Source: Mycteria americana (Eukaryota > Chordata > Aves > Ciconiiformes > Ciconiidae). Taken from it: a DNA stretch of 64,000 nt. Positions 43,601 to 46,168 of this stretch are shown here, piece by piece. The position numbers and the translations under genes are program-made. The notes under the pieces were generated by a model that ran no database searches, was not told where the DNA came from, and saw nothing but the letters and a program-made list of their open reading frames with translations. The stretch lies in the NCBI RefSeq assembly GCF_035582795.1, contig NC_134382.1:11040501-11104500 (forward strand), written 5' to 3'. How positions within the stretch are numbered: position 1 is the stretch's first letter; each line of letters opens with the position of its first letter.

Positions 43601-46168
43601 TGGAGCGGCGGTGGAGGCAGAGACACTGGTGCCGAGCCATGACGAGCAGGGCCGGCCCATCCCCGAGTGGAAGCGGCAGGTGATGGTGCGCAAGCTGCAG
43701 CTCCGCATGCAGGAGGAAGAGGAGCAGCGGCGCAAGGTAGGGGGGTCCCGCGTGCCGCGGCGGCGAGCGCGGCGTGGGCACGGCCCAGCGGCTCAGGACC
43801 TGGCGAGACAGCATGTGTGGCATCGCCTCCGGCTCCTGGCAATGCCGGGGGACCACCCCACCTGCATGCAGGGGCGTCGTGCCCCGGGGGTGCCTTGTGG
43901 CGGCGGCGGCGGCGGCACCGGGTGCACACGGTGCGGCCTCAAGAGCCCCTTTGCCCTCTTTCCCGCCGCAGCCCCGGAGCCGCTCACCACCCCCGTGCCG
44001 GTGCGGGCCACCCGCCCGCAGGGGCACTCCGGGACCCGCCGGGCAGCGGATGCGGGAGGAGGAGGTGCGGCAGCTGGAGAGGCAGCTGGGGAGCCTGCGG
44101 GTGATGCACGAGGCACAGCTGGTGCAGCCGCTGCCTGTCACCCCGGCGCCCCAGTGCTTCGCCGTCCCCCGCAAGGACCCGCTTGCCCGCAGCAGCCAGC
44201 CCCCCGCACTGCCGAGGAGCACGGCCACGCCTCCGGCCACTCTGGGGGGCCAGGAGGGCCCCAGGCTGGGGGGGGCTGTAGGCGGCCCCGGCACCCAGCA
44301 TGACGCCCGGCACGAGATCCTGGGCTGCGGCGTCTCCGTCCGCAGCCTCAAGGCCAACTACGAGGGGCCGGGGGGGGCCCCTGTGCCCCTCCCCAGGGTC
44401 ACCAAGCGCAAGCGGGCGCAGCCCCCCAGCAGCACGCGTCGGCCCGTCCTGGACGAGGAGTACGGGGATGGGGCACCGCGGCGGAGCCGGCCAGCGCTGC
44501 CGGAGCCGAGGGGCCCGCGGGAGAGCGCCGAGGCGCGCAAGGAGCGTGCAGTCGTCTTCTTCCTGGAGCACTGGAAGAAGCGGGCGCTGGCGGCAGTGCC
44601 TGGGGAGGAGCGGACGTGGCGGCCGGGGAGGCGGCGGCTCGCGGCGGGGCGGCTGCTGGCCCGCTGGAGGAGCATCGCCCGCCGGGTGCCGGGGCAGCAG
44701 ATCCAGCAGCTAAGCCGTGCCACAGTGCTGTACTGGCCCCAGCACTTCCTGCCCCGCATCGGTGGCTCGCCCATGCCCCACGACAGCCTCCCGCTTGACC
44801 TCTTCATGCTGGGGTACTTCCAGCTGCTGGAGATGCCGCTCAGCCCCGAGGAGCGGCGCTTCCGCCACCTCCTCTGCTATGAAATGTTCGACCGCCTGGG
44901 CAGCCACAGCTGGCACCGCGTCCGCCGCTTCCACCGCGCCGTGCTGGAGCGGGTCGAGGCCGGCCACTGCCGCTGGCTTGATGGCTTTGAGGACCTCGTG
45001 CAGGAGTTTTTCGGGGACGGCCCCACCACGGTGGCGGAGAGCCTGCTGGAGCCCCCCACCGTGGCCCCGGGAGGGGAGGGGGGGGCAGCGCCGGTGCCGG
45101 AGCTGGGCGAGTTCAGCGAGGAGGACATCTGCCGCTTCATCGACCGCAGCTTCTCCTTCTGGAAGGAGAAGGAGGCAGAGATGTCTGACACCTGAGCCCG
45201 GCGGAATGCTGCGGGCTGTGCCAGCGGTGTGGTGCGGGGCTGGCCGGGGGCAGGCACCAGGGGCAGCCGGAGGCAGCCAGGGGCAGCAGGACCCGGTGCC
45301 CGTGTGTGCTCAGCCGCCTCTGCGGCTCTGGCAGTGCCGTGTCTTGGCTCGGCGGAGGGCGTGGTGTTGGCTCGCGCGGACCCGGGCGGAGGTTGCGGTG
45401 TGCCGCTTGCTGTGGCTGTGTGTTGTGCGGGGGTGAGCGCCGGAGCTGCGCTCCCCTCTGGTGTGGCGTTTGCGGTGCCGGGGCGGTGTGGGCCCCTGCA
45501 TGTCAGTGCAATAAAGCTGTGGTGTGCTGCGAAGGGCTGGCCGCGCCGCGCACTCCTTCCTCCTCCCCGTGCCCGCAGAAGGTGGGCGGCAAGGGGCGAT
45601 GTCGGCGAGCCGCGTGCTGGCCAGGAGCGTGGCTCAGCCCAGCTGCCAGCAGGATGCAGTGCCACGTGCCGGGGCGATGCCACTGCCCCATGGTGCCGGC
45701 AGCGAGGGTAGGCTCCTGGCAGTGCCGGTAACGTGGCTGTATGTTGCAGGAGAAGGAGGAGGAGGCGCGCCTGGCCAGCATGCCAGCCTGGAGGAGGGAC
45801 ATCCTGCGCAAGAAGCTGGAGGAGGAGAGGTGAGCCGGGGCCGGGGGAAGCCGCGCTGGCCAGCCGCCCCCACGGCTCTGCTAACCCCGCTCTTCCCTTT
45901 GCCTTCGCAGGGAGCAGAAACGGTGAGTGCCTCGAGCCCCTTCCCTGGGCGGGCGGGAGGGAACGGCGGCTCCGGCAGCTCCGGTGACCGCGGCGCCCCG
46001 TGCCCTCCGCTGCCGAGCAGGAAAGAGCAGGAGAAGCTGAAGCGGGAGGAGGAGGAGAAGGAGAAGGAGCAGTCGGAAAAGCTAAGGACTCTCGGGTACG
46101 ATGAGACAAAGCTGGCGCCCTGGCAGCGGCAGATCATCCTCAAGAAGGGGGACATAGCCAAGCACTAG
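34633..46168 (+). CDS. ESPN: ESPN, espin, complete classical isoform of about 833 aa
   Basis: Fourteen coding exons: 34633-34926, 35755-35948, 38242-38428, 38528-38710, 38790-38921, 39012-39231, 39304-39581, 41200-41361, 41442-41625, 43214-43359, 43455-43736, 45750-45829, 45911-45922, 46021-46168. Espin bundles actin filaments in hair-cell stereocilia and other microvillar structures. Residues 1-335 form ankyrin repeats ([50 protein letters not shown]). Proline-rich blocks follow at about 425-465 and 570-600, an actin-binding segment with KQPSTGDYY near 520, a WH2 motif near 624-645 ([19 protein letters not shown]), the [19 protein letters not shown] block, and the C-terminal actin-bundling module ending [20 protein letters not shown]. 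One exon has only 12 bases. The human protein is 854 aa. ESPN converges with TNFRSF25. Confidence 0.95.
35949..38241 (+). other. ESPN intron 2 (2.3 kb); no exon recognised
   Basis: Largest ESPN intron. It holds scattered AT-rich motifs (TATATAAAT near 36310, CTATAAATA near 36599) in GC-rich DNA that could serve internal promoters, and a minisatellite at 37673-37760. No coding exon seen. Confidence 0.5.
37673..37760. repeat. GGGATGTGGGGAT-type minisatellite in ESPN intron 2
   Basis: Around seven variable copies of GGGAT(G/A)(T/A)GG(G/A) occur head to tail. Confidence 0.75.
41880..41906 (+). CDS. ESPN: Candidate 27-nt cassette exon of ESPN
   Basis: In the intron after exon 9, a pyrimidine-rich tract ending CCCCGCAG is followed by 27 bases and a GTAAGT donor. 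The flanking junctions are phase 1 and the exon is a multiple of three, so inclusion keeps frame and adds a basic peptide, RGKALRQMR, immediately before [13 protein letters not shown], just N-terminal to the WH2 motif. The donor repeats the GTAAGT of exon 9. Basic residues next to a WH2 motif could alter actin binding; that is inference. Confidence 0.45.
42565..42607 (+). repeat. (GGGGCC)7 hexanucleotide array in an ESPN intron
   Basis: About seven uninterrupted GGGGCC units in the 1.6 kb intron between exons 9 and 10. Confidence 0.95.
42800..43090. repeat. Minisatellite of 50-65 base units in an ESPN intron
   Basis: About five degenerate copies of a unit of the type GGACCCGG(G/T)GAGCTGGGTGC followed by CGGGGTGCTGGTC. 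Non-coding; it gives shadow frames on both strands. Confidence 0.75.
43972..45195 (+). CDS. ESPN: Alternative last exon of ESPN encoding an espin-like (ESPNL) type C-terminal region, 407 aa
   Basis: An open frame of 408 codons follows a strong acceptor (pyrimidine tract ending GCCGCAG at 43971) and joins ESPN exon 11 (phase 0, ...QRRK) in frame. A spliced product would have 754 + 407 = about 1161 residues. It lacks similarity to classical espin but carries segments I recognise from the C terminus of [89 protein letters not shown] and, at the end, [20 protein letters not shown]. The stop (45193-45195) is followed by AATAAA at 45510. Transcripts using this exon would lack the actin-bundling module. 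Whether it is annotated in any bird I cannot tell. Confidence 0.85.
45510..45515 (+). terminator. Poly(A) signal (AATAAA) of the alternative ESPN last exon
   Basis: Canonical AATAAA 315 bases after the stop codon of the alternative exon, followed by a GT-rich stretch suited to cleavage. It supports this exon being a true transcript end inside the gene. Confidence 0.75.

Follow-up and report, generated by a model that had tools for sequence, protein, structure and literature searches.

Espin is an actin-bundling protein of the sound-sensing hairs of the ear, and the locus analysed here raises the question of whether its gene, ESPN, can end in two ways, with the usual bundling tail or with a C terminus of the type known from the paralogous gene ESPNL. 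The locus lies in a stretch of 64,000 nucleotides of the Mycteria americana genome (contig NC_134382.1, positions 11,040,501 to 11,104,500 of the forward strand), hereafter the window, and coordinates refer to the window unless they carry the prefix C7, which marks another contig of the same genome. We consider it likely that ESPN has, in the open frame at 43972-45195, a genuine alternative last exon that has been conserved and whose paralogue is the last exon of ESPNL; the ancestor of the two genes was probably two-ended, with ESPN keeping both ends. This reading draws on the structure of the gene, on homology, on where and in what phase the intron lies, on protein constraint and on a motif match, from which we infer the ancestral origin, the use of the transcript and the function of the protein.

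The ESPN locus and its gene model

Judged by its sequence, the gene is ESPN, as the first-pass annotation had named it. The features expected of an ESPN orthologue were all found: an espin ankyrin domain, whose exons have the solved espin structures 5et0/5et1 as best match (E 7.2e-72 and 2.2e-65), the C-terminal bundling tail, and the order of neighbouring Pfam domains, namely a B-box on the plus strand followed by three 4HBT matches, a death domain and a RhoGEF domain on the minus strand. This order agrees with the series RNF207 - ACOT7 - ESPN - TNFRSF25 - PLEKHG5 around human ESPN, the gene names here being assigned from the domains only.

The gene model comprises 12 shared exons on the plus strand (34633-43736, 763 codons), with all junctions GT-AG and consistent in phase. 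Exons 1-6 lie at 34633-34926, 35755-35948, 38242-38428, 38528-38710, 38790-38921 and 39012-39231, and exons 7-12 at 39304-39581, 41200-41361, 41442-41625, 41880-41906, 43214-43359 and 43455-43736. These shared exons encode ankyrin repeats, proline-rich stretches, a WH2-type exon and the first part of the actin-bundling module. The normal tail exons 13-15 (45750-45829, 45911-45922 and 46021-46168, plus strand), of which the exon at 45750 enters in phase 0, supply the rest of the bundling module and give an espin of 842 residues. This tail contains LAPWQR and also LASMPAWR, which is near LASLPAWR, both reference peptides being reported for mouse ESPN in PMC4773517.

Exon 10 is a microexon of 27 nt (41880-41906, plus strand) with the splice sites ccccgcag/GAG and GGA/gtaagt, in phase 1 on both sides. 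It directly precedes the WH2-type exon and encodes the basic residues RGKALRQMR. The 763 shared codons and the 407 codons of the alternative exon together give a predicted product of 1170 residues; the length of 1161 residues given earlier has to be corrected because this microexon had been overlooked, its nine residues being the difference.

A probable alternative last exon within an ESPN intron

The candidate exon (43972-45195, plus strand), encoding an ESPNL-type C-terminal domain, sits within the ESPN intron 43736-45750, ahead of the remaining bundling exons, and comprises 407 residues and a TGA stop, so that the original description of an open frame with its own stop inside this intron holds. 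The other features of an alternative last exon, an acceptor and a polyadenylation signal, are present as well. The upstream exon leaves in phase 0 at the donor AAG/gtaggg (43736) and the alternative acceptor, cccgccgcag/, is entered in phase 0; the junction is thus compatible in phase as first proposed, except that the preceding exon is number 12 in our model and not number 11. The acceptor, described as strong, does rank first by score among the 137 AG sites of the intron, and among 338 unused AG sites in the other ESPN introns only one scored as high, with scoring weights learned from ESPN's own 14 acceptors. In the acceptor region (43942-43971, plus strand) the pyrimidine fraction at -20..-4 is 0.82, compared with 0.53 for the normal acceptor at 45750. 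A motif search placed an AATAAA at 45510-45515 (plus strand), 315 nt past the stop and followed by GT-rich sequence; it is the sole copy on the plus strand in 43001-47200 and gives the exon a polyadenylation signal of its own, as had been noticed. A TGTA element was looked for upstream of this signal and not found. Between 43972 and 45749 a single GTRAG donor-like site occurs, at 45433, in what is presumably the 3' UTR of the exon.

The length of the frame alone was rejected as proof of coding, long frames being common in this GC-rich stretch. It is weak evidence because long antisense frames occur (476 aa at 42508-43938, just upstream, and 418 aa at 44877-46133, overlapping the exon) and because, among 4000 Markov-1 sequences drawn to match the exon in composition, 12 had no stop over 407 codons. 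Composition by codon position is more telling: GC at positions 1/2/3 is.743/.556/.904 in the exon and.722/.588/.894 in the shared ESPN exons, and the difference GC3-GC2 is.348 in the exon against a maximum of.041 among 45 non-exonic control frames. The mean codon score is +0.230 bits/codon, compared with +0.696 for the normal ESPN tail and with control maxima of -0.248 in 45 intron frames and -0.055 in 93 frames downstream of ESPN, a set in which exons of other genes may be present. In its two remaining sense frames and its three antisense frames the exon scores negative (one antisense frame only -0.006), and in all eight sub-windows frame 0 outscored the other sense frames, with a score just below zero in two of them.

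Searches with the exon product returned no Pfam family and no significant match in the PDB (one row, E 0.43), and pattern scans of viral and genome contig collections gave 2 and 47 pattern matches, none of which was confirmed as a relative. Structure models made from the sequence alone were of low quality, with mean pLDDT values of 42.9 and 42.2, and the 11 rows returned by Foldseek for the first of them (best E 3) were given no weight.

Kinship of the exon product with ESPNL

PMC4773517 gives the sequences of six mouse ESPNL peptides, four of them used for antibodies and two from mass spectrometry. When these six were compared with the exon product, three matched strongly, two weakly in the right order, and one was without a match. 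The neighbouring mouse peptides that span residues 868-901 scored 119, compared with a maximum of 56 in 2000 shuffles, and local alignment placed this homologous core block at 44836-44937 (plus strand), with 19 identical positions over 33-34 residues. The initial C of the peptide spanning 882-901 was perhaps added for coupling; if it is left aside, the core block of the C7 relative described below is identical to mouse at 24/33 positions and that of the ESPN exon at 18/33. The tryptic peptide EIQECGVSVR (PMC4773517) matched residues 115-124 (44314-44343, plus strand) at 8 of 10 positions, a score reached by none of 2000 shuffles. The matches of HWKK.. and MAHVP.. are weak, 22 and 15 shuffles out of 2000, respectively, attaining their scores, and that of HWKK.. 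is equalled or beaten by other frames of the window; their order is nevertheless correct. For CQEYESELGR the exon product offers no match, its best score being attained by 887 of 2000 shuffles, and the first ~30 residues of the exon show little resemblance to ESPNL. Together with the similarity of the C7 exon (E 6.4e-37), the peptide matches bear out the earlier identification of an ESPNL-type C terminus.

A paralogous exon on a second contig

A search of the bird's own genome with the exon product (16 candidates scored) returned the exon itself, one chance-level row, and the relative on C7 with E 6.4e-37. The latter is the last exon of an ESPNL-like gene (C7:30849821-30848631; 396 residues, DVGSW...SLEE), with an AATAAA 47 nt past its stop and a 71-nt intron before it. 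In both ESPN and the C7 gene, 32 residues run from DE(Q/R).. to the donor in phase 0, and the C-terminal domain begins in phase 0, so that in both genes this domain comes after the stretch common to ESPN and ESPNL, at an identical position and phase. The first 27 of these shared residues are 74% identical between ESPN and the C7 gene; mouse ESPN-1 and ESPNL are reported to share 27 residues at 74% identity as well (PMC4773517).

In the own-genome search (16 candidates scored) the bundling-tail exons were found at the ESPN locus only, besides a chance-level row on contig C98 (E 0.136), the 12-nt exon 45911-45922 being too short to be found in this way, and the C7 locus gave no match to them. 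An ESPNL orthologue would be marked by the absence of the bundling tail, and at the ESPN locus the tail is present. Just downstream of the ESPNL-like gene on C7 lies a BTB-BACK-Kelch gene. This neighbour presumably corresponds to KLHL30, which lies beside ESPNL. ESPN and ESPNL also stand as separate entries in the gene table of a chick single-cell study (PMC6855842), which fits two genes in birds.

The ankyrin half of the C7 gene was not found in 130 kb around the exon and 30 kb further upstream, apart from one chance-level row (E 0.81); on the upstream side this means no ankyrin exons within 120 kb, mostly satellite. A 178-bp tandem repeat, identified with TRF, starts at C7:30863273, which is ~13 kb upstream of the 3' exons of the ESPNL-like gene, and reaches at least 30970000, more than 100 kb, with satellite words making up 45-69% of each 2-kb window in C7:30864001-30970000. 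Because of this array, only ~13 kb of ordinary upstream sequence was effectively covered by the ankyrin search, and the ankyrin half of the gene may lie beyond it. A RING-finger frame (TCPICLGPLESS...), suggestive of TOPORS-like genes, lies on the minus strand near position 30853150 of the contig, some 3 kb upstream of the shared exon in the ESPNL-like gene.

Constraint, age and alternative readings

The ESPN and C7 exons are identical at 143 of 342 residues (42%), with a pN of.39 compared with.72 for permuted codons and a pS, near saturation, of.49 compared with.55. At such divergence an unused frame would be expected to have decayed, and we therefore regard it as improbable that the exon is a relic, that is, an ancestral exon that is still readable and has dropped out of the spliced mRNA of this lineage. 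The two sub-windows with codon scores just below zero would agree with a relic; the 407 open codons, the strong acceptor, the polyadenylation signal, a C terminus conserved nearly to its end and nonsynonymous differences far below those of permuted codons speak against it. In our judgement the least probable reading has the exon in a nested transcript, driven by a promoter separate from that of ESPN and not joined to the ankyrin head of espin. Short espin isoforms from internal starts are known (PMC3953818), but the exon has the best acceptor in the intron, in the exact phase of ESPN, and the C7 gene has the homologous exon pair in identical phase.

The age of the exon bears on whether it could be a late copy, transferred or converted from ESPNL to ESPN after the bird-mammal split, for which the ESPNL-like exon at an identical intron position in the same genome might be taken to speak. 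Counted over the core block of 34 residues, identities number 25 between C7 and mouse, 21 between the ESPN exon and C7, and 19 between the ESPN exon and mouse, which would put the ESPN exon outside the mouse-C7 pair. Outside this block the mouse peptides do not clearly place C7 nearer to mouse than the ESPN exon: EIQECGVSVR is matched at 8/10 positions in the ESPN exon and 7/10 in C7, HWKK.. at 5/18 and 6/18, and MAHVP.. at 6/15 in the ESPN exon with no match in place in C7. Among the peptides, then, the core block alone sets the ESPN exon outside the C7-mouse pair, and dating by peptides is weak. A late copy nevertheless appears very improbable to us, the two exons being only 42% identical, the core blocks of C7 and mouse being closer to each other, and a landing at identical position and phase not being expected. 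What mainly favours a split before the divergence of birds and mammals is the shared intron position and phase, taken together with the low identity; the peptide distances contribute little to this. From the sequence comparison, a two-ended ancestor is the likeliest source of both 3' ends; with the same intron position and phase in the C7 gene and the tail exons at ESPN only, the origin of both ends from one ancestor, suggested in the first-pass annotation, is probable.

A model for two ends in one gene

In the reading that we prefer, a conserved alternative exon of ESPN, the common ancestor of ESPN and ESPNL would have had both 3' ends, of which ESPNL would have lost the bundling end and retained the C-terminal-domain end, and ESPN of this lineage would have retained both. 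The splice 43736^45750 would give the usual bundling espin of 842 residues, and the splice 43736^43972, with polyadenylation after 45510, an espin of 1170 residues in which most of the actin-bundling module is replaced. This longer espin would consist of the myosin-III-binding ankyrin head, the xAB region, the WH2-type exon, the shared actin-binding stretch and an ESPNL-type end with a predicted F-actin motif.

That motif is VRSLKANYE (44338-44364, plus strand), the single place where the exon product, with Y for F, matches the pattern VxxLxxxFE of the published F-actin-binding motif SFM, which is described as a helix on actin. An ESPNL peptide with VxxLxxxFE is reported to bind F-actin with a Kd of about 6 uM, and the motif in ESPNL to have arisen in Gnathostomata (PMC13364712). 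At the homologous place, the C7 exon (C7:30848631-30849821) has VRSLRGAFE, which fits the pattern exactly; VRSLKANYE is not a strict match, the form that admits F or Y occurs in <1% of shuffles, and the low-confidence structure model is without a helix there. Functional analogies in what follows derive from ESPNL and not from the ESPN alternative exon. Mouse ESPNL binds actin without cross-linking it, and ESPN-1 and ESPNL are described as myosin-III cargoes that set the length of stereocilia (PMC4773517). By analogy, the long espin would be expected to be a myosin III-carried protein that binds actin without cross-linking through its C-terminal module, and we infer that the alternative tail would keep contact with F-actin and drop the bundling geometry. 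The first-pass annotation had called the product a non-bundling scaffold, which needs rewording because the actin-binding parts stay (the 1170-residue product would still carry the xAB region, the WH2-type exon and the shared actin-binding stretch of 27 residues) and the new exon has a match to the F-actin motif; a protein that binds actin and probably does not bundle it by way of the C-terminal module is the better description. The idea that espin and ESPNL have opposite effects on growth is accurate for MYO3A, with which ESPN-1 promotes elongation and ESPNL inhibits that elongation, and fails for MYO3B, with which both elongate protrusions (PMC4773517).

If the model is true, one gene would yield either C terminus, with the ratio set by splicing and polyadenylation and not by two promoters, and this choice would act in animals that regenerate hair cells. 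The model also suggests how the paralogues originated, namely that an ancestor with two 3' ends gave rise to genes that lost complementary ones, and would make the pair a clear test case for subfunctionalisation of splice forms. It is doubtful, though conceivable, that a satellite-rich breakpoint has severed ESPNL in this bird from the half that carries the ankyrin repeats and binds myosin III, in which case the alternative end of ESPN, a remnant older than the gene duplication, would now give the only protein that combines ankyrin repeats with the C-terminal domain. Were ESPNL truly broken, the single-gene switch in ESPN would substitute for its broken paralogue.

Comparison with known systems

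Among the matches listed in our literature search, no espin isoform with an ESPNL-type end was named in titles or abstract openings; the predicted isoform may already be annotated. The espin isoforms described in PMC4758956 and PMC3953818 differ at the N terminus and have a common C-terminal bundling module, whereas the alternative exon would replace most of that module. The ankyrin head, middle exons and bundling tail of ESPN and its espin 1 isoform are all present here too. Forked, the espin orthologue of Drosophila, is also an ankyrin-repeat protein, of bristle cells rich in actin bundles (PMC4758956). ESPNL resembles the ESPN exon in its homologous domain, in intron position and phase (C7 gene), in the mouse peptide matches and in having one F-actin motif match, at the homologous place in the C7 exon; unlike in ESPNL, however, the domain here sits in ESPN, beside a complete bundling tail and in ESPN-type synteny.
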